Assembly (NCBI GenBank): GCA_028285585.1
Contig: JANQOU010000006.1
Span: 124,001-188,000 of the forward strand
From: Acidimicrobiia bacterium
Lineage (GTDB): Bacteria > Actinomycetota > Acidimicrobiia > Spongiisociales > ZC4RG35
Direction: 5' to 3'
DNA length: 64,000 nucleotides
Shown piece after piece: positions 263 to 42,685 of this stretch. Under the pieces are notes generated by a model, which saw only the letters and a program-made list of their open reading frames with translations, was not told the origin of the DNA and searched no databases. Position numbers and translations under genes: made by a program. Position 1 is the stretch's first letter, and every line of letters begins with the position of its first letter.

Positions 263-1132
263 GTGCCCGCCGGCGAGGCCAGCTACGCAGGTTTCCATTG
301 TGCGGTCCTGTCCAATCCTGCCGGGCACACGCTCTATGTGACCGTCGACAGAGGCCCCAGAGTCATCGGATACGAAGTGGCCAGTGGCGTAAACGCCTTC
401 GTTGCACTCGACGGGTTGGGGTTGGACAGCCCGGGCGGTCGCTTCGAGTTCATGGGCGGGCACCGGTTGTGGCTGGCTCCCGAGACACCGGGAGTCACCC
501 ACCTCCCCGACGAAGAGGCGTGCACAGTCGAGCTCTCGGGCAACAACTTGCACGTCACTGCCCCGGACAATGGATCTGGATACACGCGATCGATCAGAGT
601 GGAAAGCTTCTCGGATGGCTTCATCGTCGACCACACCGTGACCGGGACGCAGGCGACTTCTGCACGGCCGGTGGCAAGCTGGGCCATCACCCAGCTCCCC
701 CTCGGCGGCTCCGCCATCGTGCCTTTCGGCCCGGGGCCGGACCCGGGCGACTTCCAAGCCAGCCACTCGCTCGTTCTTTGGCCTTACACCAAGCTTGATG
801 ACCCTCGGATCTCCGTTGAAGACGGCTACGTGCTGATCGAGGCTGTGGCAGGAAACCCATGCAAGATCGGCGTTCGGCCCGACGCCGGCTCAATGGGCTA
901 CTTCCGAGACGGCCTCCTCTTCTCCAAGCGAACCGATCCCGCCCCAGACCCCATCCCGGATTTAGGAGCCTCCGCTCAGGTCTATTCGGGGCCGGACTTC
1001 GTGGAACTGGAGACGGTGAGCACGCTGAGAGAGCTGAGCCCCGGCCAGACGACCGGCCACCGTGAGGTGTGGCGGGTGCGCGAGAGCATCACAATGCAGA
1101 CGGCTATCGGCGAAGTGTTGGAGCCTGCTTGA
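263..1132 (+). CDS. DUF4380-like protein (mutarotase-like fold)
   Basis: A 289-residue soluble protein with a GTG start one base after the upstream stop, so probably translated by coupling. The stretch GGHRLWLAPETPG near residue 70, the following strand-rich middle and LVLWPYTKLDDPRI near residue 170 fit the DUF4380 family, which is predicted to have a beta-sandwich related to aldose-1-epimerases. No biochemical role is firmly established for the family. Its place between a GH3 enzyme and xylulokinase suggests sugar binding or anomer interconversion, which is inference. The stop overlaps the next start (TTGA). Recognition is from motif memory only. Confidence 0.55.
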   Translation: MPAGEASYAGFHCAVLSNPAGHTLYVTVDRGPRVIGYEVASGVNAFVALDGLGLDSPGGRFEFMGGHRLWLAPETPGVTHLPDEEACTVELSGNNLHVTAPDNGSGYTRSIRVESFSDGFIVDHTVTGTQATSARPVASWAITQLPLGGSAIVPFGPGPDPGDFQASHSLVLWPYTKLDDPRISVEDGYVLIEAVAGNPCKIGVRPDAGSMGYFRDGLLFSKRTDPAPDPIPDLGASAQVYSGPDFVELETVSTLRELSPGQTTGHREVWRVRESITMQTAIGEVLEPA

Positions 1133-2613
1133 GCTACCTGATCGGAATCGACGCCTCGACTACCGCGACAAAGGCGATCCTGGTCGACGGGACCGGGGAT
1201 CCAATCGCCACTGGCACTCGCGAGTATGGCTATGAGACACCAAGACCCGGATGGGCCGAGCAGCACCCTGGGCAGTGGTGGGAAGGCGCCGTGGGAGCAA
1301 TCGCCGACGCCCTGAGCAAAGCCGAAATCGACGGTTCGGAAGTGGCCGCTGTGGGGCTCAGTGGGCAAATGCACGGTCTTGTGATGCTCGACGCTGCCGG
1401 TGATGTGATCCGGCCCGCAATCCTGTGGAACGACCAGCGAACCGCGGACCAGTGTGATCGGATACGCCGTGAGATAGGGCCCGAGCAGCTCGTGAGCCTC
1501 ACCGGGAACGATGCCATGACCGGTTTCACCGCCCCGAAACTGCTCTGGGTCCGTGAGAACGAGCCGGAGGAGTTCGATCGGATCGCATCGATCATGCTGC
1601 CCAAGGACTACGTCAGGTTCATGCTCACCAGCGCTGTGGCAACCGACATGGCCGACGGGTCAGGAACCTTGTTGATGGACGTCGCCAACCGCCGCTGGTC
1701 TGGGGAGATGATGGACCTGGTCGGCCTCTCGCCAGGACAGATGCCGGAACTGTTCGAAGGGCAATCGGTGACCGGGACCGTGGGCACCGAAGCTGCCCGG
1801 CTGACCGGGCTTGCTCCCGGCACCCCGGTCGTCGCAGGCGGCGGCGATCAAGCTGCGAACGCAGTAGGTGTCGGAGCAGTCGACAGCAGCACCGGAGCCC
1901 TGTCGTTGGGGACATCGGGAGTGGTGTTCGTGGCCTCTGACCGGCCTGTCGTAGAGCCAAAGGGTCGAGTCCATGCGTTCTGTCACGCGGTGCCCGGCAA
2001 GTGGCACGCTATGGGGGTGATGCTGTCCGCAGCAGGGTCGCTGAGGTGGTTTCGGGAAGCCCTCGCACCTGACGTCCCCTTCGACGAGCTGGTGTCCGAA
2101 GCCTCCAGCGTCGGGCCCGGCGCAGACGGCCTCCGGTTCCTTCCCTACCTCACAGGTGAGCGCACACCTCACTCGAATCCGCACGCCAAAGGCGCCTTCA
2201 TCGGCCTGACCATCCGGCACAGCCGAGCCCACATGACACGCGCCGTCCTCGAAGGGGTCGCCTTCGGCCTCGCCGATGGCGCCAGCCTGATGCGTGATGC
2301 CGGCATCATCATGCCGGCAGTCTTCAACTCCTCGGGTGGGGGCACCCGCTCGAAACTCTGGAGACAGATCATCTCCGATGCCCTTGATGCGAAGCTGGCA
2401 ACGGTGAAGACCGTCGAGGGTGCCGCCTTCGGGGCAGCGCTCCTCGCCGGGATCGGTGTCGGCATATGGCCGGACGTGACCGAGGCGGCGCGAGTGGTGA
2501 CGAAGATGGAGACAACGGAGCCGGGGGCCGACGCCGAGGCACACCTCGCCGCATACGCGTCCTTCCGCGACTTGTACCAACCCCTCGAGCCTCTGTTCCC
2601 TGATCTCGGATGA
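1129..2613 (+). CDS. xylB: Xylulokinase (FGGY carbohydrate kinase)
   Basis: Phosphorylates D-xylulose to xylulose 5-phosphate with ATP, feeding the pentose phosphate pathway. The protein begins SYLIGIDASTTATKAIL, the N-terminal phosphate-binding loop of FGGY kinases. GQMHGLVMLD near residue 80 and ILWNDQRT near residue 100 are xylulokinase hallmarks, and GGGDQAANAVGVG with LGTSGVV marks the C-terminal nucleotide-binding half. I place the start at a TTG whose TTGA overlaps the upstream stop, with GGAG six bases before it, giving 494 residues, the normal family size. It is the third gene of the sugar operon. Confidence 0.9.
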   Translation: MSYLIGIDASTTATKAILVDGTGDPIATGTREYGYETPRPGWAEQHPGQWWEGAVGAIADALSKAEIDGSEVAAVGLSGQMHGLVMLDAAGDVIRPAILWNDQRTADQCDRIRREIGPEQLVSLTGNDAMTGFTAPKLLWVRENEPEEFDRIASIMLPKDYVRFMLTSAVATDMADGSGTLLMDVANRRWSGEMMDLVGLSPGQMPELFEGQSVTGTVGTEAARLTGLAPGTPVVAGGGDQAANAVGVGAVDSSTGALSLGTSGVVFVASDRPVVEPKGRVHAFCHAVPGKWHAMGVMLSAAGSLRWFREALAPDVPFDELVSEASSVGPGADGLRFLPYLTGERTPHSNPHAKGAFIGLTIRHSRAHMTRAVLEGVAFGLADGASLMRDAGIIMPAVFNSSGGGTRSKLWRQIISDALDAKLATVKTVEGAAFGAALLAGIGVGIWPDVTEAARVVTKMETTEPGADAEAHLAAYASFRDLYQPLEPLFPDLG

Positions 2614-2644
2614 ATCAGCCCGCCAGCCGTCGCCGCGGTCGCTC

Positions 2645-3526
2645 ATGAGACTCGAGCGGATTGCCGTGACGGGAGGAAGCGGTGGAGTGGGTCGCCACGT
2701 AATCGCCGACCTGCTCGCTCACGGCTACGACGTGATCAACATCGACCTAGTCGACAATCCAGACTGCGAGACCAACGCTATCGACCTTCGAGACTTCAGC
2801 TCACTCGCAGCAGCGCTCGACGGCATGGACGCCGTGGTTCACGTCGCTGCCAACCCGGTGCCGGACATCGATGCGTCAACGGGCGCCGAACGCTTCGAAG
2901 GCAACACTGTCACAACGTACAACGTGATGTGGGCAGCAGCCCGTCTCGGGATCGAGCGCGTCGTGTGGGCCTCATCAGAGACGGTTTTCGGGTTCCCGTT
3001 CGACAATGTGGCACCTCACTACCTGCCAGTCGATGACCTGCACCCTCTGATACCCCAGAACTCGTACGCCATCTCCAAGGTTGCGTGCGAGGAGGGGGCG
3101 CGGCGGCTGCATGAGATCTCTGGAACCAGCTTTATCGGGCTCCGCCTGTCCAACGTGCTGCACACTGCGGCCGAGCACCCGGCCTCCTACTCCCTCGTGC
3201 CCGGCTATCACGGCGACCCAACGAGCAGAAAGTTCAACTTGTGGGGATACATCGATGCGCGAGACGCCGCGTCAGCTGCTCGCCTGGGCCTCCAAGCCAC
3301 CATCAGCGGGGCGCACGAAGTCACCATCGCAGCCGAAGACACGATCATGGACCTGACCAACGAGCAGCTAGTCGAGGCGGTGTTCCCCGGCGTGCCCCTC
3401 GCCCCTGGCACGGGAGAGCACGAGTCACTTCTCTCGATCGAGAAAGCCAGGCGGATTCTCGGGTACGAGCCTCTCTATTCCTGGCGCGATCAGGTGTCCT
3501 CGGGGAAGCTCTCTACGTCGTCATAG
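2645..3526 (+). CDS. NAD-dependent epimerase/dehydratase (extended SDR)
   Basis: A 293-residue extended short-chain dehydrogenase. The Rossmann glycine motif TGGSGGVG is at residues 9-16, the active-site serines are in VWASSETVFG near residue 110, and the catalytic pair YxxxK is Tyr141 and Lys145 (YAISK). The family acts on nucleotide sugars or sugar acids such as uronates; the substrate cannot be assigned. It lies 31 bases after xylulokinase in the same direction, so a role in sugar oxidation or epimerisation is likely. Its last 37 bases overlap the convergent GFA gene. Confidence 0.75.
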   Translation: MRLERIAVTGGSGGVGRHVIADLLAHGYDVINIDLVDNPDCETNAIDLRDFSSLAAALDGMDAVVHVAANPVPDIDASTGAERFEGNTVTTYNVMWAAARLGIERVVWASSETVFGFPFDNVAPHYLPVDDLHPLIPQNSYAISKVACEEGARRLHEISGTSFIGLRLSNVLHTAAEHPASYSLVPGYHGDPTSRKFNLWGYIDARDAASAARLGLQATISGAHEVTIAAEDTIMDLTNEQLVEAVFPGVPLAPGTGEHESLLSIEKARRILGYEPLYSWRDQVSSGKLSTSS

Positions 3527-3876
3527 ACGTGATAGTCACTTCCGAAGTCAACGAATATCGCCTTGGTCGTCTTCAAGCCGGTAGGGGGCGTCAAGGTGCC
3601 CGCCGCGATCGAAATCGAGCCGGCGGTCCGCTCGCTCCGCCAGAACAAGGTTGACCCGCAACGTTCGCAAAACCCGTATTCGGTTCCCTCCACGGGTGCG
3701 TACCACCGGAGCGTCCCGCCACGAACAGTGACATCCTCGCGCTTGGCCTGAGTGGCGGCCATGTAGTGGCCCGTGCTGCGACGACAACGCGTGCAATGGC
3801 AATTGATGATGTCTCGAGCCGGGCCTTCGACGGTGTATTGGACCTCCTCGCACAGGCACTGGCCGCTCAGCTTCAC
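3490..3876 (-). CDS. GFA/CENP-V family zinc-binding protein
   Basis: A 128-residue protein of the glutathione-dependent formaldehyde-activating (GFA) fold. Paired zinc ligands are visible: Cys7 and Cys9, then Cys26, Cys28 and Cys31 (NCHCTRCRR), then Cys70 and Cys73 (FCERCGS). Members bind two zincs. Few have a proven reaction, and actinomycetes usually lack glutathione, so formaldehyde activation should not be assumed. The start is a GTG whose GTGA overlaps the stop of the upstream alcohol dehydrogenase, so the two are translationally coupled. Its 3' end overlaps the convergent epimerase by 37 bases. Confidence 0.75.
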   Translation of the reverse strand: MKLSGQCLCEEVQYTVEGPARDIINCHCTRCRRSTGHYMAATQAKREDVTVRGGTLRWYAPVEGTEYGFCERCGSTLFWRSERTAGSISIAAGTLTPPTGLKTTKAIFVDFGSDYHVYDDVESFPEDT

Positions 3877-4904
3877 TGACTAGCTCCTATCTCGATGACG
3901 ATCGACCCGACATGGTTCTTCTCCATGAAGTCGGATTGGGCCCGCTTCAGCTCCTCCAGCGAGTAGGCGCCCGCCACCACCGGCTCGATCTCACCGCGCT
4001 CGATGTACCCAACCAGGTTGGCGAAGACCTCGGGGGGAAGAACCGTCGCTCCGTGCATGGTGATGTCGCGCAAGTAGAGGGCTCGGAGGTCGAGCGGGAC
4101 CACAGGCCCGGCAATCGCCCCCGCCACCACATAGTGACCACCACGCCGGATCGTCTCGAAGAGGGGGGCGAATTGATGGCCGCCAATAACGTCGGCGAAG
4201 ACATCGATTCCTCCCGTCTTCTGGAGAATCACCTGGTCGACGTCGTTCGAGTCGCGGTCCAGAACGACGTCGGCTCCGAGCCTGCCCACCTCCCCCATCT
4301 TGGGCTCACTGGTGAGCGCGATGACTCGAGCGCCCCTTCGCTTTGCCAATTGAATCAACGCGACACCCACACCACCTGACGCTCCGGTCACCAACACCCA
4401 CTGCCCTGATGCAACAGCAACCCGATGAAGCATGTGCTCGGCAGTGGCGTAGGAGCAGGGGAACCCGGCCAGCTCGACATCGGTGAGGTCGGTCTCCACC
4501 GCATGGGCATTTGCGGCGGGCACCGCCACATACTCCGCGAAACCTCCGTCGATCTCCGAGCCGAGATATCTGGCTTCCGACCCGTCTTCACCCCGGACCC
4601 AGGCGTCGACGAGGACCCGCTCTCCGAGCCGCCGCGGCTCGACCCCGTCACCCACTTCGACGATCCGTCCCACCGGATCTGCACCCTGGATCCGGGGAAA
4701 CTCCATATCACCTCCCCAACCGCCAGCCGCGTACCAACCGACGCGGGTGTTGATGTCCGTGTTGTTCACCCCACAGGCTGCGACCTCGATCAATACTTCG
4801 CCGGGCCGTGATGCAGGTTTGGGCCAGTCTCTATGGCACGAGAGCATGTCCATGTCGCCATGGCCGTTCAACACGTAGGCGCGCATTGTGTCGGAGGCGC
4901 TCAT
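3873..4904 (-). CDS. Zinc-independent alcohol dehydrogenase / quinone oxidoreductase (MDR family)
   Basis: A medium-chain dehydrogenase/reductase of 343 residues. The N-terminal GroES-like domain carries EVAACGVNNTDIN, without the CGxCGxD zinc signature. The nucleotide-binding loop VTGASGGVGVALIQLA lies in the second half, the arrangement of NADPH-dependent quinone oxidoreductases and related zinc-independent enzymes. I chose the ATG at 4904 because the family-like sequence starts there and a GGAAGAG stretch lies just upstream; 28 more codons are open upstream. Substrate unknown. It overlaps the GFA gene by 4 bases and diverges from the DMT transporter across 57 bases. Confidence 0.75.
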   Translation of the reverse strand: MSASDTMRAYVLNGHGDMDMLSCHRDWPKPASRPGEVLIEVAACGVNNTDINTRVGWYAAGGWGGDMEFPRIQGADPVGRIVEVGDGVEPRRLGERVLVDAWVRGEDGSEARYLGSEIDGGFAEYVAVPAANAHAVETDLTDVELAGFPCSYATAEHMLHRVAVASGQWVLVTGASGGVGVALIQLAKRRGARVIALTSEPKMGEVGRLGADVVLDRDSNDVDQVILQKTGGIDVFADVIGGHQFAPLFETIRRGGHYVVAGAIAGPVVPLDLRALYLRDITMHGATVLPPEVFANLVGYIERGEIEPVVAGAYSLEELKRAQSDFMEKNHVGSIVIEIGASQ

Positions 4905-10634: not shown

Positions 10635-12570
10635 TCCGGGACGTCTCGAGCGCCTGCTCCGGCCCAAGTCGGTTGTGGTGGTGGGCGGAGCAGAGGCGGA
10701 GCGAGTTGTCGAGCAGCTCGACCGTCTCGGATTCGACGGCGACATCTGGCCGGTCAACCCCAACCGGGATGAGATAGGAGGCCGCCGATGCCTCAGATCG
10801 ATCCGTGAGGTGCCTGGTTCTCCAGACGCCGCTTTCGTGGCGGTTCCGGCCGAGCAGACACCGGAAGTCGCCTCGGCTCTTGCAGCGCTGTCGGCGGGGG
10901 CCATCGTCCTTTACTCGTCCGGGTTCGCGGAGTCTGGCGACCAGGATCTCCAGCAGGAGCTGATCGAAGCGGCGGGCGGTGTCCCTGTGATCGGGCCCAA
11001 CACGTACGGGTTCGTCAACGCCCTCGACAAGACCGCGATCTGGCCCGATGTGCACGGGATGAAACCGGTGGAACGAGGCGTCGGCATCATCACTCAAAGC
11101 GGCAACATCGGGATCAACATGACGATGGCCCGACGCGGCCTCGACATCGGGCTCCTGGTGACGGCCGGCAACCTCGCCGACCTCGGCATATCCGACTACA
11201 TGGCTGCGATGATCGAAGACGAGAGGATCACCGCGATCGGAGTCCAGTTGGAGTCACTGTCCAGCCCCGAGGTTTTTGGAGCGGTGGCAATCGAAGCGGC
11301 CAAGAAGGGGATTCCCATTGTGGCCCTGAAGATGGGGACGTCGGCGAGAGGCTCTCTGATCACGTCGTCGCACACCGGGGCCATGGCCGGCGAATCAGAT
11401 GTCTACGACGCCTTCTTCGCCCACTACGGAGTGACTAGCGTCTCAGCGATCCCGGCCTTTCTCGAGACGCTGAAACTGGGAGCCAAGGTCTCACCCAAGT
11501 CCCGGGTGGTCTCCCTGAGCGCATCCGGAGGCGAGGCGGCGCATGTGGCAGACCTGGCAGCCTCCCACGGAGTCGACCTGCCCAAGCTCACAGAGAGTCA
11601 CGCTGCTCAGGTGCGTGACACCGTGCACCACTTGGTCAACGTGAGCAACCCCATGGACTATCACACCCTCTCCTGGGGTGATGGCGCATCCCAAGCCAAG
11701 ACCTTTGGCACTCTGGTCGACGGGCCCTTCGACGTCGCCATGCTCGTGCTCGACTTCCCCGGCGGTGACATCCCCGAGGACTGGTGGACGGCCTGCCAGG
11801 CGTTCGCTACCGCGGCCGCCGGACGACCGGGTCTCGTCGTGGCCACCCTTCCGGAGAACATGCCGGAGGAAGCCCAAACCAGACTGCACGACATGGGCCT
11901 CATCCCGATGCTCGGCCTTGCCGAGACCATGGAGGCCTTGGGCTCGATGAGATCAGGATCATCAGATGACCCCGTGCTCCAGGCTCCTGCACCGACCTCG
12001 GTGACAACGCTCGACGAGCACGCGTCGAAGGCGGTTCTCCAAGCGGCCGGCATCGACATCCCTATTGGTGAAGTGCTCGCCGATCCGACGTCTGGGAACG
12101 TCCCCTACCCGCGGACGGTCAAGGTCCTGGGGCTGGACCACAAAGCGGCCATGGGCGCTGTTGCAGTTGGCCTCGACAACTCCGAGCTCGTCAAGGAGCG
12201 GACCGACACCATGCCCGAAACCGACCGATACTTGGTGGAGGAGACTGTCCAGCACGACTCATCAGAGGTGATGCTGAACTTGCGGGCCACCGACCTCGGC
12301 TGGATGTCGACCATCGCATCGGGCGGCACCAGCGTGGAGCGTCTCGACAAGCGGGAACACCTGATGATCCCGACCACCGCCAAGGCTCTTGGCGAAGCTC
12401 TAGGCCACGTCGGCGTCAACGGCTTCGACCCTGAGCACCTGTTGGATGTGGTCGACAAGATGCTCGAGGCCCGTCAGAAAGATCGGAGAATCATGGAGAT
12501 CGAGATCAACCCGCTGGTGATGGCAAGCGGCAGAGCTGTCGCCCTCGACGCGATGGTGAACGTGTCATGA
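10624..12570 (+). CDS. NDP-forming acyl-CoA ligase (acetate-CoA ligase ADP-forming family)
   Basis: A 648-residue protein with the ACD domain order: CoA-binding Rossmann domain (KSVVVVGG near residue 15), a succinyl-CoA-ligase-like middle with the phosphorylated histidine His250 in SSHTGAMAGES, and a C-terminal ATP-grasp_5 domain. The family reversibly makes acyl-CoA from acid, CoA and ATP, giving ADP and phosphate. Here it probably serves the trimethylammonium acids gamma-butyrobetaine, crotonobetaine or carnitine. No CaiB-type transferase or CaiC-type AMP-forming ligase is present in the operon. The ATG at 10624 overlaps the dehydrogenase by 11 bases, and the 3' end overlaps the hydratase by 4. 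Confidence 0.82.
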   Translation: MAADPGRLERLLRPKSVVVVGGAEAERVVEQLDRLGFDGDIWPVNPNRDEIGGRRCLRSIREVPGSPDAAFVAVPAEQTPEVASALAALSAGAIVLYSSGFAESGDQDLQQELIEAAGGVPVIGPNTYGFVNALDKTAIWPDVHGMKPVERGVGIITQSGNIGINMTMARRGLDIGLLVTAGNLADLGISDYMAAMIEDERITAIGVQLESLSSPEVFGAVAIEAAKKGIPIVALKMGTSARGSLITSSHTGAMAGESDVYDAFFAHYGVTSVSAIPAFLETLKLGAKVSPKSRVVSLSASGGEAAHVADLAASHGVDLPKLTESHAAQVRDTVHHLVNVSNPMDYHTLSWGDGASQAKTFGTLVDGPFDVAMLVLDFPGGDIPEDWWTACQAFATAAAGRPGLVVATLPENMPEEAQTRLHDMGLIPMLGLAETMEALGSMRSGSSDDPVLQAPAPTSVTTLDEHASKAVLQAAGIDIPIGEVLADPTSGNVPYPRTVKVLGLDHKAAMGAVAVGLDNSELVKERTDTMPETDRYLVEETVQHDSSEVMLNLRATDLGWMSTIASGGTSVERLDKREHLMIPTTAKALGEALGHVGVNGFDPEHLLDVVDKMLEARQKDRRIMEIEINPLVMASGRAVALDAMVNVS

Positions 12571-13346
12571 GCGGGATCGACGTGGCCAACAACGGCCCAG
12601 TGCTCGAGATAACCATCGACGTGCCCAAGGCCAACGCGATCAGCGCAGCGACAAGTCGCCGGCTCAGCGAAGTCTTCACCGCCTTTCGGGACGACCCCGA
12701 CGCTCGCGTGGCAATCCTGACCGGGGCCGGCGACCGCTTCTTCTCCGCCGGATGGGACCTCTCAGCCGCGGTCGAAGGTGAGGAGTACGAGGCCGACTAC
12801 GGAGCGGGTGGCTTTGGAGGCTTCCCCGAGCTGCCCGGGCTCAACAAGCCGGTGATCGCGGCCGTAAACGGCATGGCCGTCGGCGGTGGGTTCGAGCTGG
12901 TTCTCGCCGCTGACCTGACGGTGGCCTCCGATCATGCAGAGATGTTCTTCGGTGAGCTTGCCGTGGGCGTGATCCCGGACTCAGGATCGATCCGACTCCC
13001 CCGCCTCATCCCATCGTCGGTCGCCAAAGAGCTGATCCTGACCGGCCGCCGGATGCCGGCCAAGGAGGCCTTGCGCTGGGGGATCGTCAACCGGGTAGTC
13101 CCGGGTGAGCTGCTCATGGACGAGGCCCGATCGGTTGCCGAGAGCATCGCCGCCATGGCGCCACTTGCGGTTGAGGCCACGATCGCGGTGATGAGAGACA
13201 CCGCGCACCTGAGCCTGTCAGACGCCTACGAGGCTCTCCGAAGCGGCGAGATCCTCGAATACAAGACAGTGCTCGATAGTGAGGACGCCAAAGAGGGGCC
13301 GCGAGCCTTCGCCGAGGGCCGCGAGCCCGAGTGGAAAGGGCGCTAG
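12567..13346 (+). CDS. caiD: Crotonobetainyl-CoA hydratase-like crotonase (CaiD-like)
   Basis: A 259-residue crotonase. FFSAGWDLSAAVEGEE near residue 58, the oxyanion loop NGMAVGGGFELVLAAD, TGRRMPAKEALRWGIVNRVV and the ending EGPRAFAEGREPEWKGR closely track E. coli CaiD as I remember it. Glu110 and Glu130 fall where CaiD has its two active-site glutamates. The reaction would be hydration of crotonobetainyl-CoA to carnitinyl-CoA. Last gene of the operon: its ATGA start overlaps the ligase, and its TAG lies within a 4-base CTAG shared with the convergent ABC gene. Confidence 0.85.
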   Translation: MSGIDVANNGPVLEITIDVPKANAISAATSRRLSEVFTAFRDDPDARVAILTGAGDRFFSAGWDLSAAVEGEEYEADYGAGGFGGFPELPGLNKPVIAAVNGMAVGGGFELVLAADLTVASDHAEMFFGELAVGVIPDSGSIRLPRLIPSSVAKELILTGRRMPAKEALRWGIVNRVVPGELLMDEARSVAESIAAMAPLAVEATIAVMRDTAHLSLSDAYEALRSGEILEYKTVLDSEDAKEGPRAFAEGREPEWKGR

Positions 13347-15412
13347 GCCTGCCTCTCAGCTCTGAGCACATCCCGCAGATCCCCCAGATCTTCCGCCTGA
13401 GCAGCAGCAAGCTCATCGGGCGGGATGTGGCACCTGATGGTGTGCCCTGGCCGCACCTCGACGACAGGTGGCTCGAGAACATCACAGGTGCCTTCGATGA
13501 AGCGGTGGCATCGGGTGTGGAACACACAACCCGGTGGCGGGTCCTTGGGGCTGGGGATCTCGCCGGTGAGCGGGATCCGGTTCTCGGCCTCGCCATCAAC
13601 ACTGGGGACTGCCGAGAGCAATGCCTCGGTGTAGGGGTGATTCGGGCCGTCGAACATGGCGTCGGTTGGCGCCAGCTCCATGAGCCTGCCCACGTACATC
13701 ACTGCGATTCGATCTGACAGGTAGCGAACCACACCGATGTCGTGGCTGATGAACAGGTAGCTGGTCCGGACGTCACGTTGCAGCTCGGCGAGCAAGTTCA
13801 AGATCGCAGCCTGGACCGACACGTCGAGGGCCGAGGTCGGCTCGTCCGATACCACCACATCGGGATCCCCGGCGAATGCGCGGGCGATGGCGACGCGCTG
13901 CTTGAGGCCACCTGACAGCTGGCGGGGCCGCATGTCCATGTGACGCTCCGAGAGCTGCATCGCCCGTGCCACTTCGACGGCACGGGAATCGGCTTCGGGG
14001 CCGGTGACACCGGTGAGCTTGGACACGGCGCGAGTGAGGATCCGGCGCACTGTCCAGGACCGGTTGAGTGCAGAGTCGGGATTTTGGAAGACCATCTGAA
14101 TCGAGCGGATCGACTCCTCTATCCGCTGAGTCGCCTTGGTGGCCATGGGACGGCCGCGCAGCGTGATTGCGCCGCCTTCATCCGGCTCGTAGACGCCGAG
14201 CATCGTCTTGGCCAAGGTCGACTTGCCCGAGCCTGACTCGCCGACGAGCCCGAGGGTCTCGCCTTCGGCGAAACCGAGATCCACCGCGACTAGAGCTGGG
14301 ACGTCGCCCGAGCGCTGATGGAAGGTCTTCGACACGCCATGCACCCCGATGACTTCCTCCTCACCGACGAGGTGGTCGGCAGCAATCTCCTCGGGCTCGG
14401 GGATCTCGCCAATGCGGTCTGGGTGATGGCAACGGGTCCAGTGCCAGTCCGAACGATCGACGATGGGGGGCACTTCGGAGCGGCAGAGTTCGGTGACAAC
14501 CGGACATCTGTCCACGTAGACGCAGGTGGGGAGAGAGTCGCCGATCTGGGGCAGGTTCCCTGGAATCGAGAACAGCTCGCGGTCGGTTTTGCGCAAACCG
14601 TGACGTGGAATCGAGTTGAGCAACCCCACGGTGTAGGGATGGCTCGGCCCGTCGAAGACCTCGTCGACAGTGCCTTCCTCGACCATGCGCCCCGCGTACA
14701 TGACACCGACGCGGTCACACATCGTGCGAATGACACCCAGATTGTGGGCGATCAGCAGAATGGCGGCGCCGATCTCGTCACGCAGCTCGCGAACCAGGTC
14801 CAGAACCTCGGCTTCAACGGTCGCATCGAGACCAGTGGTTGGCTCGTCGAGAACCAGCAGGGAGGGATCGGATGCCAGTGCCATGGCGATGACGACACGC
14901 TGGAGCATCCCGCCGGACAGCTGATGCGGGTATCTCTCCATGACACCGACGGGGTCGGCAATATGAACTCGCTCTAGGGCTTTGCGCGCCAGATCGCGAG
15001 CCTCTCCGGACGAATGACCGAGGACTGTGAAGGACTCGGCCACCTGACGGCCGATCTGCAGCACAGGGTTGACCGCCTGGACGGGGTCCTGATAGACCAT
15101 CGATGCGTCATGGGCTCGGAACTCGCGTAGCTCCGAGCCTGACATCGCCGTCAGCTCGCGACCGCTCGCCTCGATCTTGCCACCGGTTATGAGGCCGTTG
15201 CGAGGCAGATAGCGCAACGCGGCGTATGCAGTGGTCGATTTGCCACACCCGCTCTCACCAACCAGGCCGAAGGCCTCTCCGGGCCTGACCTCGAAGGTGA
15301 CACCACGCAGCACCTCGCGTGGCTTTCCTCTAACCACATACGACATATGCAGATCGGTGATGGCCAGGGCCGGTGTCTCGGTTGCCGTCGGCGGGTTCTG
15401 CAATGTGGTCAT
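13343..15412 (-). CDS. Fused peptide-type ABC transporter ATPase (DppD-DppF fusion)
   Basis: A 689-residue protein with two complete ABC ATPase modules of the dipeptide/oligopeptide class. The first has Walker A GESGCGKST at residues 52-60, signature LSGGMLQR and Walker B LLVLDEPTTGLD. The second has GESGSGKST, LSGGLKQR and VVVSDEPTSALD. Each module ends with the OppD/F C-terminal extension (RCPVVTELC and HTRCHRFIEGTC). It powers the two permeases encoded just upstream. The start at 15412 overlaps the permease stop (ATGA). Opp/Dpp systems can also carry non-peptide amines; substrate is discussed under the binding protein. Confidence 0.9.
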   Translation of the reverse strand: MTTLQNPPTATETPALAITDLHMSYVVRGKPREVLRGVTFEVRPGEAFGLVGESGCGKSTTAYAALRYLPRNGLITGGKIEASGRELTAMSGSELREFRAHDASMVYQDPVQAVNPVLQIGRQVAESFTVLGHSSGEARDLARKALERVHIADPVGVMERYPHQLSGGMLQRVVIAMALASDPSLLVLDEPTTGLDATVEAEVLDLVRELRDEIGAAILLIAHNLGVIRTMCDRVGVMYAGRMVEEGTVDEVFDGPSHPYTVGLLNSIPRHGLRKTDRELFSIPGNLPQIGDSLPTCVYVDRCPVVTELCRSEVPPIVDRSDWHWTRCHHPDRIGEIPEPEEIAADHLVGEEEVIGVHGVSKTFHQRSGDVPALVAVDLGFAEGETLGLVGESGSGKSTLAKTMLGVYEPDEGGAITLRGRPMATKATQRIEESIRSIQMVFQNPDSALNRSWTVRRILTRAVSKLTGVTGPEADSRAVEVARAMQLSERHMDMRPRQLSGGLKQRVAIARAFAGDPDVVVSDEPTSALDVSVQAAILNLLAELQRDVRTSYLFISHDIGVVRYLSDRIAVMYVGRLMELAPTDAMFDGPNHPYTEALLSAVPSVDGEAENRIPLTGEIPSPKDPPPGCVFHTRCHRFIEGTCDVLEPPVVEVRPGHTIRCHIPPDELAAAQAEDLGDLRDVLRAERQA

Positions 15413-16347
15413 GACTTGAGCACCTTCTCTATCGAGTCGGCAATGAGGTTGACCCCGATCACGAGGATGCCGATGGCGAGCGCAGGGAACACGGTTGGCC
15501 ACCACACGCTGGCCACGATCTGCTGGTAGTTCTGGGCCACATCCACTCCCCAGTTGGGATCGGTGACGTTGCCGCCGGACAACCCGAGGAAGGCCAGTGT
15601 GGCCAGGGTGAAGATGGCGTAGCCGAGCCTGACGGTGACCTCGACGATCACCACGCCGATGACGTTGGGGAAGATCTCACGGGAGATGATGAACAGGCTT
15701 CTCTCTCCTCGCATTCGGGCGGCAGTGACATAGTCGAGCTGAGCTTCCGCCAGGGTCGCAGCTCGAACCGTCCTTGCGATCGGGGGGATGAAGAGGAAGC
15801 CGATCGTCCCGATGATCACCGGGTTCGTCGCTCCGAAGGTGAAGACGATGACAATCGCAAGGAGGATCGACGGGATCGAGAGGATCGCCTCCAGGAGGCG
15901 GCTGACGATCTCGTCCACCCAGCCACGGAAGTAGCCGGTGATCAGGCCGAGCAACGACCCTATGAAAGCTGCGATGAGCGTTGCCGCCGGGGCCGCGATC
16001 AGAATCGGTCTCGAGCCGTGGACCACTCTCGAGTACACATCTCGTGCGAGACGATCGGTGCCGAACCAGGCAGTGCTGTTGGGCGGGGTCCGCAACAGTG
16101 TTTGCCCGGCGTCGTCGACGACTGTCTCTTTCGGGCCCCAAACCGTGAACAGCTCCGGGAAGACAGCGGTGAGTATCCAGAAGAGGACGATCACCGAGCC
16201 GACGATGAAGCCTGGTGTCCTGAGCAGGAGTGCCCGCTGCTCCCGTCGCACCTGGCGCCGGGTGGCAGCCGCGGCCTGCCTGATCGCCTCGCCGCTCTGC
16301 TCCGGCGAACCGTCAGGTGTGGGGCTCTGGTCGGACTTGGTCGTCAT
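15409..16347 (-). CDS. ABC transporter permease, DppC type
   Basis: A 312-residue membrane permease. A charged, glutamine- and arginine-rich cytoplasmic N terminus of about 45 residues precedes the first membrane segment (GFIVGSVIVLFWIL). Further segments follow, with the coupling-loop region ATLAEAQLDYVTAARMRGERSLFII typical of DppC/OppC. It pairs with the DppB-type permease whose stop overlaps its start by 4 bases, and it overlaps the ATPase gene likewise, so the three transport genes form one coupled unit. Confidence 0.88.
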   Translation of the reverse strand: MTTKSDQSPTPDGSPEQSGEAIRQAAAATRRQVRREQRALLLRTPGFIVGSVIVLFWILTAVFPELFTVWGPKETVVDDAGQTLLRTPPNSTAWFGTDRLARDVYSRVVHGSRPILIAAPAATLIAAFIGSLLGLITGYFRGWVDEIVSRLLEAILSIPSILLAIVIVFTFGATNPVIIGTIGFLFIPPIARTVRAATLAEAQLDYVTAARMRGERSLFIISREIFPNVIGVVIVEVTVRLGYAIFTLATLAFLGLSGGNVTDPNWGVDVAQNYQQIVASVWWPTVFPALAIGILVIGVNLIADSIEKVLKS

Positions 16348-17306
16348 CCTGCCTCACTCAAGCTCAAACGGGCACGTGGGTTCATCCATGCGATCAGCAG
16401 GTCTGCGCCGAGAGTGGCGAACATATAGATGATCGCCACGGTGAGAACTCCGCCGCGCAGCAACGGGTAGTCGGCGGCGTCAACGGCGTCGAAGATGAGA
16501 CGGCCCAGACCCGGATAGTTGTAGATCAGCTCCAGGCCGACCATCCCGCCGAACAGATAGCCGAGCTGGGTGCCGACGACAGCAACGGTGGGGACCAGGG
16601 AGTTGCGCAGCACATGCTTTCTGAATACCTGCCCGGTGGTCAGGCCCCTCATGAACGCGGTGCGAGTGTAGTCGGCGTCCAAAGCGGTAATGGTGCTCGC
16701 CCTGGTGATACGAGCGATGTAGCCGAAGTAGACGGTCAGCACCGTCAGGGCCGGGAGCAGCAGGAACTGCATCTGGGTGAGGATCCCGGCGTCGGGCGGT
16801 GGGTTGGCCAGCACCTTGAAGAAAGAGAAGGGCACGGCCAGCAAGGCCAAGAACAGGACGCCGATGACGAACTCGGGCACCGACGAGAGCGCCACCCCTG
16901 TGTTGACGATGGTCCTGTCGAGCCAGGTGTCACGTTTGTAAGCCGCCAGCAGCCCTCCTGCGATGGCCAAAGGCAGGACAAGCAACAGGGCGTACACAAC
17001 CAGCTTGGTCGAGTTCCACAACGCGGTCAGGACCAGGCTGGTGACCGATGTCCCGGGACGGGTGAACGATTCGCCGAAGTCGAAGCGAAAGACACTGCTG
17101 AAGACATCGACGAGCTGCTCGCCAACGGGCTTGTCCAAGCCCAGCGACTCGGTGACGGCCGCCAGGCGCTCAGGAGAAGCCGTGCCACCCGCGATCTTGC
17201 GCGCCGGATCCCCGGGCGCAACGTTGGGGATCATCGTGATGAGCACGAGGATGATGACGAGCGTCAGCAGCGACAGCAGAAGCCGTCGTCCAACAAACCG
17301 TCTCAC
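16344..17306 (-). CDS. ABC transporter permease, DppB type
   Basis: A 320-residue membrane permease starting MRRFVGRRLLLSLLTLVIIL, the classic DppB N terminus. A periplasmic-side region containing NVAPGDPARK follows, and the coupling loop DADYTRTAFMRGLTTGQVFRKH is in the second half. It forms the import channel with the DppC-type partner. It lies 97 bases downstream of the binding-protein gene; that gap contains a long hairpin (17351-17391). Overlaps the DppC gene by 4 bases. Confidence 0.88.
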   Translation of the reverse strand: MRRFVGRRLLLSLLTLVIILVLITMIPNVAPGDPARKIAGGTASPERLAAVTESLGLDKPVGEQLVDVFSSVFRFDFGESFTRPGTSVTSLVLTALWNSTKLVVYALLLVLPLAIAGGLLAAYKRDTWLDRTIVNTGVALSSVPEFVIGVLFLALLAVPFSFFKVLANPPPDAGILTQMQFLLLPALTVLTVYFGYIARITRASTITALDADYTRTAFMRGLTTGQVFRKHVLRNSLVPTVAVVGTQLGYLFGGMVGLELIYNYPGLGRLIFDAVDAADYPLLRGGVLTVAIIYMFATLGADLLIAWMNPRARLSLSEAG

Positions 17307-17350
17307 TCGCTCACCTCAGACTCGCTCTCTGGAGTGCCTCACGGCTGGTT

Positions 17351-17391
17351 GAGACGGTGTGAGGCCACGACTGGTGACCCCACACTGTCTC
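17351..17391 (-). other. Intercistronic RNA hairpin between binding-protein and permease genes
   Basis: On the transcribed minus strand, GAGAC pairs with GTCTC and GTGTG with CACAC, followed by GG with CC; one A-C mismatch and one G-T pair separate the blocks, and a 13-base loop closes the stem. No U-run follows, so it is not a canonical intrinsic terminator. Such stem-loops after binding-protein genes often stabilise the upstream mRNA or cut read-through into the permeases. That role is inferred. Confidence 0.5.
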
Positions 17392-17403
17392 GATATCTCT
17401 TAC

Positions 17404-19143
17404 TCAGGCGGACTTGCTCGCCTTGTGGAACTGCATGTGCCCGAGTGCAGTGACCTGCACGTTGGACACAGAGCTGTCGTGGCCGCCCAGGTAGTCGAAG
17501 AAGAACGGGTACAACGCAGGAGCGTCCTCGTGGAGGAGCTTCTGGATCGCACCCACCGCTGCCTTCTGACCTGCGACGTCGACCGCCGACTGGTAATCAG
17601 CGAACAGCCCATCGAACTCGGGCGACGCGTAGTTCGAGGAGTTCCAGTCACCATCCGTCTCCAGGGCTCGCCCGAAGAACACGTCTGGAGTGGGCCGGTG
17701 GCCGTAGTCGACGATGCCGATGGCAGCCGATGCGCCGCAGGGGCGACCGGGACCGCCGGTGTCGGGCTGAGCTCCCCAGGATGCGCCTGCACACCAGTAC
17801 TCGCCGTAGAAGTCGGAGTTGGCCGTGACGTTGACCGACAGAGTCACTCCGGCCTCGGCAGCGTTCTGCTCGACGATGGCACCCATGTCAGGGCTGGCCA
17901 GGATCTCACCGACCTCGATGGTGGCGGTGAGGCCCTCATGGCCGGCATCTGCAAGCAGCTGCTTCGCCATGTCAATGTCTCTCGTCCGCTGTGGAGTTGC
18001 ATCCGCGTCGAAGAACGGCAGTGTCGGGTGGACCGGATGGTCGTTGCCGACGATGGCGAAGCCCTGGAAGAGGGTGTCGACCATCTGCTGCCGATCCAGC
18101 ATATAACCGAAGGCCCTCCGGACCCGGGCGTCCGTGAACGGGCCGCCCTCCGGAAGCTGAGTGTTGAACCACAGCTGACGGTGGTTGGACGACGGCGGCT
18201 TCAGCACCGTGAAGTTGTCGTCGTTGAGCAGGCTCGAACCGTCAACCACACCGAACTGCTGGATCATGTCCAGCTCACGGGCTTGCATAGCGGAGACACG
18301 AGCACCGTCAGATCCGAACCCGATGAGGGTGATCTCGTCGAGGTTGGGACGGCCGCCCCAGTAGTTGTCATTGGCCTTGAACACCGTGGTGAACGTGTTG
18401 GGGTCGTGGCTCTCGAAGATGAAAGCTCCGGTGCCTGATGGGCGTGCGTCGAGAGTGGTCCCGTCCGAGTAGTCCGCGGGCGTGATCAACGACTGCGGGT
18501 TGTAGATCGAGATCAGAACCGGCAGGTTCCCGTTGGGCTTGTCGAGGTTGACGACGGCAGTGAGGTCGTCCGGTGTCTCCACCGCGCCCTCGCTGACGAC
18601 ACCGGCGAGGCCGGCGCCGGCCACAACCATGCGATCGACAGTGGCGGCCACGTCGGCAGACGTGAACGGAGTCCCGTCGTGCCACATCACACCTTCGCGA
18701 AGGTTGAACGTCCAGGCACTCCCGTCGGCGTTGGGGGTCCAAGAGGTGGCCAGACCGGTGTTCCCGATGTTGCCGTCGGGAGCGAGGCCCACCAGGTACT
18801 CGAAGCTCTGTGAGAGCACGCTGTAGGTACCCAAGTCGAGCATGTTCAGCGGGTCGAGGCCGGAGTTGGCGTCACCCTGCTGGATGCCGGCCTTGAGGCT
18901 TCCGCCAGCTACCGGAGCCTGGGTCCCGCCAGCACCGCTCGTGCCGGGAGCGGCAGTGCCATCCGTGGGCTCGGGGCTGCAAGCCGCAATAACACCGGCC
19001 ATCGATGTCACGCTGAGCCCAAGGATCGCACCACGCTTCAGGAAGTCGCGTCTGGTGATCGCGCCCTGGGCGTAATGCTCCATCAGGTCAACTTCAAGTG
19101 GTGATGATTTTTTGCGAATTGAGTCGAATAGTTTCCAGTCCAT
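17404..19143 (-). CDS. Substrate-binding lipoprotein of peptide-type ABC transporter (family 5)
   Basis: A 579-residue family 5 solute-binding protein. Residues 29-35 form a twin-arginine motif (TRRDFLKR), followed by a hydrophobic stretch and a lipobox ending at IAAC, so it is probably a Tat-exported lipoprotein. SWTPNADGSAWTFNLREGVMWHDG is the signature of DppA/OppA proteins, split across residues near 150. The ATG at 19143 has GGAGG upstream. It follows the choline-dehydrogenase-like gene by 146 bases on the same strand and precedes the permeases. A quaternary amine such as choline or carnitine is the likely ligand from context, but peptides remain possible. Confidence 0.85.
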   Translation of the reverse strand: MDWKLFDSIRKKSSPLEVDLMEHYAQGAITRRDFLKRGAILGLSVTSMAGVIAACSPEPTDGTAAPGTSGAGGTQAPVAGGSLKAGIQQGDANSGLDPLNMLDLGTYSVLSQSFEYLVGLAPDGNIGNTGLATSWTPNADGSAWTFNLREGVMWHDGTPFTSADVAATVDRMVVAGAGLAGVVSEGAVETPDDLTAVVNLDKPNGNLPVLISIYNPQSLITPADYSDGTTLDARPSGTGAFIFESHDPNTFTTVFKANDNYWGGRPNLDEITLIGFGSDGARVSAMQARELDMIQQFGVVDGSSLLNDDNFTVLKPPSSNHRQLWFNTQLPEGGPFTDARVRRAFGYMLDRQQMVDTLFQGFAIVGNDHPVHPTLPFFDADATPQRTRDIDMAKQLLADAGHEGLTATIEVGEILASPDMGAIVEQNAAEAGVTLSVNVTANSDFYGEYWCAGASWGAQPDTGGPGRPCGASAAIGIVDYGHRPTPDVFFGRALETDGDWNSSNYASPEFDGLFADYQSAVDVAGQKAAVGAIQKLLHEDAPALYPFFFDYLGGHDSSVSNVQVTALGHMQFHKASKSA

Positions 19144-40756: not shown

Positions 40757-41743
40757 TCAAATGAGCCCGAGCTCCCGGACGGCGTCCCGTTCCGCCTCCA
40801 ACTCGGCGACACTGGCGTCGATCTTCGAGCGCGAGTAGTCATCGATCTCGAGCCCGCGAACTATCTGCCACTGCCCATCGCGGACCACACACGGGAACGA
40901 AGAGATCAACCCCTCCGGGACACCGTACGAGCCGTCGGACGGCACCCCCATCGACACCCAGTCGCCCTCGGGCGTGCCCTGAGACCAGTCACGCATGTGA
41001 TCTACCGCTGCGTTGGCTGCTGAAGCCGCCGAGGAAGCACCGCGCGCTTCGATCACCGCTGCGCCTCGCTTGGCCACAGTGGGTATGAAGTCGCCATCGA
41101 CCCAATCGTGGTCATCGACCAGCTCATAGGCGGGTTGGCCGCCGACCTCACAGTGGAACAGATCCGGGTACTGCGTTGTGGAGTGATTCCCCCAGATGGT
41201 CATTCTCTTGATCTCAGACACCGGGCGCCCGGTCTTGGAAGCGAGCTGAGACATCGCCCGGTTGTGATCGAGACGGGTCATCGCCGTGAAGTTCGACGGG
41301 CTCATCCCGTCGGCGTTGCTCATCGCAATCAGGGCGTTTGTGTTGGCCGGGTTGCCAACGACCAGCACCCTCGCATCGGGACTTGCCGCCGCGGCGAGGG
41401 CCTTCCCCTGTGTGGTGAAAATCGCACCATTGGCCGACAAGAGGTCAGCCCGTTCCATTCCCTGCTTTCTCGGCATTGCTCCAACGAGGAGCGCGAAGTC
41501 GGCATCCCCGAACGCCACCTCGGCGTCATCGGTCTTGACGATGTCTTCGAGCAGGGGAAAGGCGCAGTCCTCCAACTCCATGGCCACGCCTTCCAAGGCG
41601 GGCAAAGCGGGGGTGATCTCGAGCATCTGGAGGATCACCGGCTGGTTGGGGCCGAGCATCCCGCCGGAGGCGATGCGGAACAAGAGGCTGTAACCGATCT
41701 GGCCGGCGGCGCCGGTTACAGCTACACGAACAGGGTGATTCAT
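40757..41743 (-). CDS. mdh: Malate dehydrogenase
   Basis: A 328-residue NAD-dependent malate dehydrogenase of the cytosolic/actinobacterial type. The nucleotide loop [19 protein letters not shown] starts at residue 9. The substrate arginines lie in [16 protein letters not shown] and in MTRLDHNRA. The catalytic His is in [12 protein letters not shown]. It interconverts malate and oxaloacetate in the TCA cycle. It lies downstream of nadABC on the same strand, separated by 111 bases that hold twin palindromes. Confidence 0.93.
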
Positions 41744-41777
41744 GTGTTCGAGGCTAACTGTGTCCCGCGTGCACCGA

Positions 41778-41845
41778 GTCGCGCTGACCGCGACGCCTTG
41801 CTATAGCAACGCGTGTCGCTCAGCGCGACGGGTTGCTATAGCAAC
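41778..41845. promoter_or_regulatory. Twin TTGCTATAGCAA palindromes and inverted repeat between nadC and mdh
   Basis: TTGCTATAGCAA occurs at 41798-41809 and 41833-41844, 35 bases apart; the second extends to a perfect 14-base palindrome GTTGCTATAGCAAC. GTCGCGCTGA (41778-41787) is the exact reverse complement of TCAGCGCGAC (41820-41829) and encloses the first palindrome, so one strong nested hairpin can form. The region lies just upstream of the mdh start and downstream of nadC. It could be a pair of operators for mdh or the nad operon terminator. Confidence 0.55.
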
Positions 41846-41854
41846 GAGGGCCGG

Positions 41855-42685
41855 TCAGGGTGAGAAGTCGAGGCCGATGTCGAGCTGGGGAGCCGAATGG
41901 GTGATCCAGCCAACCGAGATGATGTCAACCCCCGTCTCGGCGATCTCCCGGACAGTTTCCAAGGTGACACCACCCGATGCCTCGGTCACGATCTCATCCC
42001 CGGCAAGCTCCACCGCTTGCCTCAGCGTGGCTACGTCCATGTTGTCGAGCAGGACACGGTCGGCATCGGTCCGCAGCACCGCTTCCAGCTGATCGAGGTC
42101 CTCCACCTCGACCTCCACCATCACATCCGGTCCGACCGCATGCCGTGCCTGGGCCACCGCCCGCTCGATGTCCCCCGCGGCAGCGATGTGATTGTCCTTG
42201 ATCATCACCGCGTCGAAGAGACCCATCCGGTGGTTGATGCCTCCGCCGGCACGCACAGCCTCCTTGTCCAACTCGCGCAGGCCGGGCATGGTTTTTCGAG
42301 TGTCGGATATGGACACACCCGTCCCTTCGACTTCGGCGACCAGCCGAGCTGTCTCGGTGGCAACACCGGACATCCGACCCATCAAGTTCAGGGCTGTGCG
42401 CTCTGCCGTGAGGATCGACCGCGCCGGGCCGGCCACCGTGGCGATGACGGTGCCGCTCTCCACCCGATCACGATCACCAACGAAGACCTCGAACCTCACG
42501 TCCGGGTCGACCAACTCGAAGACCCGCCTCGCCACCGAGACTCCGGCGACGACCCCGGCGGAGCGGGAAACGATGTCTCCAGAAGCCCGGGTCGCGGTCG
42601 GAATCACGGCTTGGGTGGTCACGTCGCCTGCTTCATCCAAGTCCTCCTCCAACGCCCGCCGGATGACCTCGTCGACTCGGCTCAT
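41855..42685 (-). CDS. nadC: Nicotinate-nucleotide diphosphorylase (quinolinate phosphoribosyltransferase)
   Basis: A 276-residue enzyme converting quinolinate and PRPP to nicotinate mononucleotide, the third step of de novo NAD synthesis. DTRKTMPGLRELDKEAVRAGG and HRMGLFDAVMIKDNHI are the family signatures, carrying the basic residues that bind quinolinate. EASGGVTLETVREIAETGVD closes the phosphate site. It overlaps nadB by 4 bases (ATGA) and is last in the nadABC operon. Confidence 0.93.
   Translation of the reverse strand: MSRVDEVIRRALEEDLDEAGDVTTQAVIPTATRASGDIVSRSAGVVAGVSVARRVFELVDPDVRFEVFVGDRDRVESGTVIATVAGPARSILTAERTALNLMGRMSGVATETARLVAEVEGTGVSISDTRKTMPGLRELDKEAVRAGGGINHRMGLFDAVMIKDNHIAAAGDIERAVAQARHAVGPDVMVEVEVEDLDQLEAVLRTDADRVLLDNMDVATLRQAVELAGDEIVTEASGGVTLETVREIAETGVDIISVGWITHSAPQLDIGLDFSP

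Follow-up and report, generated by a model that had tools for sequence, protein, structure and literature searches.

REP-type repeats occur widely among bacteria, and RAYT has been proposed as the mobiliser of REP. Another kind of short dispersed element, the MITE, consists of short inverted-ended copies that occur alongside a parent transposon. In the part of the literature available to us, the GTAG and CGTC super-families of REP and BIME are described as small dispersed palindromes, single, paired or grouped in tandem, which usually separate genes in convergent or tandem orientation; plots for two species put most of the convergent ones <20 bp from 3' ends, and the GTAG termini often provide a stop codon (PMC3733652). 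REPINs, according to the portion of the description consulted, comprise two highly conserved short ends that flank a variable, hairpin-prone spacer, and a nuclease gene is tied to these repeats (PMC3116915).

The element considered here lies within the window, a stretch of 64,000 nucleotides, in the 111-base gap between two minus-strand genes: nadC (41855–42685; TIGR00078), whose 3' end hosts the element, and the downstream mdh, encoding malate dehydrogenase (40757–41743; NF003916). A sequence-only reading had pointed to two copies of TTGCTATAGCAA and to a 10-base perfect inverted repeat enclosing one of them, and both are real. The copies occupy 41798–41809 and 41833–41844 at a start spacing of 35, and the arms GTCGCGCTGA (41778–41787) and TCAGCGCGAC (41820–41829) surround the first. 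The coordinates given for the element were right but clipped it, because its ends are at about 41769 and at the nadC stop codon, 41855–41857. From its far end it is built, without strand assignment, of a distal GTGCAC motif (41769–41774), an arm pattern that recurs beside cores genome-wide; a 23-nt dyad reaching from this motif to core 1 (41775–41797); core 1 itself; a 23-nt inner dyad of the GTnnCG..CGnnAC type that separates the two cores (41810–41832); and core 2, which adjoins the nadC stop. A half dyad on the minus strand (41845–41857) leads from core 2 to the stop codon TGA, which reads TGAC at the element edge, and the arms of the 10-bp inverted repeat (41778–41829) are part of the two dyads. 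Next to mdh a -10-like TTAGCCT (41751–41757, minus strand) is retained, as judged by eye, with a similar position in some relatives. An Rfam scan of the window returned two tRNAs only.

This element is one copy of a modular, genome-wide family of palindromic interspersed repeats of the REP/REPIN type. Within the window, a search for TTGCTATAGCAA at ≤2 mismatches gave 2 matches, both exact, a number reached in 3 of 100 shuffles (mean 0.22). The genome scan for the 12-mer that the sequence-only reading had called for yielded 58 further copies, which brings the count to 60 exact copies at 41 places (loci L046–L079 plus the window) in the 2.59-Mb genome, and the reversed control gave 0. The refuting outcome named in that reading, a lack of further occurrences, thus did not come about. 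The pair is above chance by both the window shuffles and the genome count against this control. Each unit runs from a core (12 nt) through a dyad (23 nt) to either a second core (17 units) or the distal GTGCAC motif (31 units); this set of 48 leaves out elements with a distal GTGCAA (L050, L066 left, L073) as well as ends that lack the distal arm. Inner dyads diverge by about 20% across the 48 units, with the GT..CG and CG..AC positions nearly invariant. Core divergence is 0 to 0.5% in units that were themselves gathered by core, so the constancy of the core rests instead on the count with one mismatch allowed (62 copies, only 2 more), on a whole-gap BLAST of the genome (85 matches; 40 of 49 candidates scored) and on the distal-arm pattern, all 34 of whose genome matches at ≤1 mismatch lie beside a core when positions are compared. 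A constant core with variable dyads implies selection after insertion and is not predicted by plain decay of mobile copies. Three places (L056, L057 and L072) hold composites of two inverted units around a centre of about 40 nt without a nuclease gene; two of these are nearly identical, and therefore copying has happened. The L056 composite, a possible remnant of one of the units of the relative G012, termed gamma, shows synteny with it on one side only. At L068 (2966), a degenerate third core with 2 mismatches adjoins an intact pair.

The copies occupy a characteristic niche at gene ends. At 30 of the 41 places the core lies ≤17 nt from a stop codon, counting overlaps of a few bases, where 14.7 would be expected if cores were uniform in the gap, and a few places show a 9-nt overlap between core and called gene end. 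The host stop reads TGAC in 22 of 34 cases versus 37 of 209 other stops (p 6e-8). By a simple codon-bias gene caller made for this analysis, the flanking genes are convergent at 18 places, tandem at 17 and divergent at 6, while 44 of 252 adjacent pairs overall are convergent. Pfam scans of 20 host proteins encoded next to these stops gave matches for 19, to functionally unrelated families that include urocanase, Dus, a release factor, the isocitrate lyase family, GlnE, sigma-70 and ETF alpha, and no match for the remaining one.

The family thus resembles REP and BIME in being made of short, dispersed, extragenic palindromes near gene 3' ends. It differs from them in the 35-bp spacing of its palindromic core and in the GTAG tag, which none of the 48 units has; 35 of 48 inner dyads contain CGTC or its complement, and the AT-starting stem and CCA tail were not seen on reading. 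Conserved ends around a variable spacer, together with a nuclease gene tied to the repeat family, recall the REPIN-RAYT arrangement. Here, however, the ends are themselves palindromes, and the linked gene encodes an unrelated nuclease family, AbiEi plus DUF559. The Y1 tyrosine transposase (RAYT, PF01797) is absent from this genome, which is 97% complete, and from 9 of 9 genomes tested, and RAYT was rejected as a partner on this ground. Because both RAYT and, in all 48 units, GTAG are missing, we call the family REP-like and not a member of REP. Short inverted-ended copies alongside longer bracketed gene units are also reminiscent of MITEs with a parent transposon, from which the family departs in having palindromic ends and many single-ended copies.

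At nadC-mdh the element looks to have been inserted in this lineage. Among the mdh loci of 17 relatives, some of them cut by contig ends, nadC adjoins mdh in seven; in six of these, 33 to 41 nt separate the NadC alignment end from the mdh start, compared with 114 in this genome, and these short, element-free gaps make a gain here the apparent course. In the seventh (L105) the space is 140 nt and the core is absent. As a family, the repeat was found in this genome only: TTGCTATAGCAA occurs in 0 of 98 further genomes from the family and order, and a class-wide draw found it in 18 of 394 other genomes, at 1 to 4 copies each. Single paired 12-mers also occur, scattered, in 13 unrelated species (L080–L092), for example Phytoactinopolyspora and Chitinophaga, and in 1 virus.

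The layout recurs in relatives, in repeats whose sequences differ. A 331-kb portion of G012 contains dispersed palindromes with the core GAACCCNGGGTTC, which is present in 35 of 60 genomes, including other families of the order, at up to 67 copies, and is absent from this genome. The layout is the same in G012, G025, G021 and G034 with different dyads, and the cores are spaced 35 to 38 bases apart, or twice that in G021. Core counts go up in each of the six genomes tested when one mismatch is allowed, and the rise is largest in G034, which has GAACCCTGGGTTG as a second frequent form of the core; the strict core of this genome is therefore not seen everywhere. No palindromic core stood out in the stretches of G013 and G017. 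G034, a member of a different family within the order, has arrays of 2 to 6 tandem units (L259–L274), mostly 36–38 bases apart.

One pair of repeats among the 41 places in this genome brackets a nuclease gene. At L058, two units 1030 bases apart, with their cores facing outward and flanks that match at 98% over 42 bases, enclose a 325-residue ORF (L058 3062–4039) whose product is a predicted AbiEi-type winged-helix (wHTH) protein with a DUF559/Vsr-like nuclease domain. Among four such ORFs scanned against Pfam, DUF559 exceeds the curated cut-off in three, including the one in this genome; AbiEi_4 exceeds it in one and is at or just below it in the rest (below in this genome), and MTES_1575 falls below the cut-off. 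PADLOC AbiEi models match the nuclease ORFs at E 7e-19 to 3e-25, and NCBIfam gave no match for those scanned. With a profile of six homologues, the C-terminal half gives weak PDB matches to 3r3p (E 0.004), named "Mobile intron protein", and to 3hrl (E 0.015), named "Endonuclease-Like Protein", and the N-terminal part finds abortive-infection proteins at E 0.3 to 0.9. The residues invariant across the six homologues are R, D, E-x-D, H and D; EDxHD is a motif after which a group of homing endonucleases is named. By its C-terminal domain and conserved catalytic-type residues, the protein resembles Vsr-like/DUF559 PD-(D/E)XK nucleases and EDxHD homing endonucleases, and it differs from them in its fusion to an AbiEi-type winged helix and in the palindromic repeats around its gene. 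DUF559 is also present in Caulobacter VsrA, according to the part of the source available (PMC12907096).

The association between gene and repeats extends to other genomes. A tblastn search of the gathered sequences found nine such nuclease ORFs in six genomes, eight of them bracketed by inverted palindromic repeats as in a transposon with terminal inverted repeats, although at L120 and L260 the bracketing consists only of exact matches of 11–12 bases; the ninth, in G017, abuts the edge of a contig, and its open side carries a dispersed repeat. Cores face outward by reading in six of the eight bracketed units (this genome's, L119, L157, L215, L239 and L248) and on one side of L260, and their direction is not readable at L120. 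The loci of this genome, G025 and G034 and the G012 locus L215 had been fetched because they bear repeats. In the stretches unselected for repeats (G012, G017, G013 and G005, with four nuclease genes in all, including one at a contig edge), inverted flanks at E≤0.01 surround 3 of 3 testable nuclease genes versus 32 of 850 other genes, and at E≤0.001 these figures are 2 of 3 versus 3 of 850. No AbiEi-DUF559 gene was found in 400 kb (267 genes) of G005 or, by tblastn, in 28 kb of G021. In a tblastn against plasmids, L215 had no match at 1e-10 and L120 had 11 partial matches, each with <50% coverage.

Repeat and nuclease sequences vary together. Across seven units, with hand-set windows and leaving out G025 L248 and G017, nuclease similarity correlates with repeat similarity (Spearman rho 0.72, exact permutation p 0.006). 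G012 contains three repeat families, each bracketing its own nuclease. The flanking repeats are also dispersed elsewhere in G012 and in G017 (5 copies in 250 kb, flank included); the G013 flanking repeat has no further BLAST match in 331 kb and one look-alike by pattern. The nuclease closest to that of this genome is G012 gamma (48%). By eye, an inner G012 gamma copy shares TGCACAGCGT-TCGCT-AGCGCG with the repeat of this genome, and in the test windows the two repeats score 20 versus 16.4 for shuffles, despite having the closest nucleases.

Several of these loci have features of their own. Two genera have a repeat-nuclease-repeat unit at the same site, where the 3' end of a Rex-like gene faces that of a gene for a 119-residue protein: L058 (2387–4410) and L119 of G012 (1064–3111), with differing repeats and nucleases of different lineages (35%). 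At L248 of G025 (3110–4189) the nuclease frame diverges from its relatives past the middle and looks broken, and both flanking repeats are kept. Long non-nuclease genes sit within strong inverted copies at L148 of G017 (12426–15092) and L119 of G012 (16257–18143), as cargo or as chance neighbours.

In regard to function at the host locus, the sequence-only reading had suggested either a dimeric regulator controlling mdh or a terminator whose arms double as operators. A core that is a perfect palindrome, hardly varies and is often paired at a fixed spacing would suit an operator at which a dimeric regulator acts on mdh and on further genes. The same sites, however, recur at 41 places, mostly at stop codons and not before promoters, beside the functionally unrelated host proteins described above, and the element is absent in relatives that keep nadC-mdh; we rejected a regulator of mdh on the 41 places and the 20 unrelated host proteins, and a wider operator role is very improbable. 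For the terminator suggestion, position and hairpin potential fit, and the excess of convergent places, the cores at stop codons, the folding of the nadC-mdh gap (z -2.42) and the better folding of inner dyads than of shuffles in four genomes (mean z -1.7 to -2.6) could all be expected if the elements were mainly bidirectional terminators or 3'-end stabilising hairpins, kept by selection and multiplied by recombination without a dedicated mobiliser. An intrinsic terminator, that is, a GC-rich hairpin followed by a U-tract, was rejected, because no U-tract is found in the nadC-mdh gap and none of the 41 places has 6 T in 8. Furthermore, two dyad layers pair in only about 30% of units in this genome, as compared with five layers that pair in 80 to 97% in G025, in an analysis that reads both strands and counts the core-core units of G012, G025 and G034 twice; and the core hardly varies, though a hairpin would not need it. 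Host genes are mostly unshared between genomes as well: 3 of 37 are common to this genome and G012 (control 2 of 251), all within a single syntenic stretch of 20 kb, and 1 of 37 to this genome and G025 (control 4 of 251), counts that do not support a general conservation of position and led us to reject conserved ancestral terminators. A mainly terminating or stabilising role without a mobiliser therefore seems quite unlikely.

Alternatively, the repeats may be pre-existing functional palindromes into which the AbiEi-DUF559 gene inserts as a homing-type parasite, with the gene-less composites as empty targets. The weak match of the C-terminal domain to 3r3p is in keeping with this idea, as are the nuclease-free composites L056, L057 and L072, which are, however, equally expected as internally deleted copies. 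The covariation of repeat and nuclease and the three G012 repeat families with a nuclease each speak against it, and we consider such homing unlikely.

We propose that the family is REP-like in layout and niche, with the AbiEi-DUF559 nuclease as its cognate partner. On balance we favour a REP/REPIN-like family that is probably cognate to this nuclease instead of RAYT, with mobilisation as the presumed outcome of the pairing. In such a system, the nuclease would recognise its cognate repeat and drive the spread of the repeat, or home into it. The short copies would be non-autonomous derivatives, with their best chance of survival behind stop codons, and there they may also serve as transcript 3'-end hairpins. 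More tentatively, and with slightly less than even confidence, we suggest an order-level mobile system of an undescribed class, in which an AbiEi-type winged-helix and Vsr-like nuclease may be paired one-to-one with core-dyad-core repeats, independently of RAYT-REPIN, with a recognition sequence that changes from genus to genus and a layout and gene-3'-end niche that persist.

A literature search that also took in repeats in Acidimicrobiia returned, in the portions of text it covered, nothing linking DUF559 or homing endonucleases with REP or palindromic repeats; as a text string, TTGCTATAGCAA appears in the portions seen of work on colorectal cancer and on E. coli RadD, and GAACCCTGGGTTC was not found. 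The repeats bracketing the nuclease gene suggest a selfish genetic element of a kind not yet described. An unrelated second nuclease linked to REP-type repeats would explain orphan families and give them a directly testable partner. The link between nuclease and repeats would also assign a role to some AbiEi-DUF559 genes, whose database labels are antitoxin or unknown.
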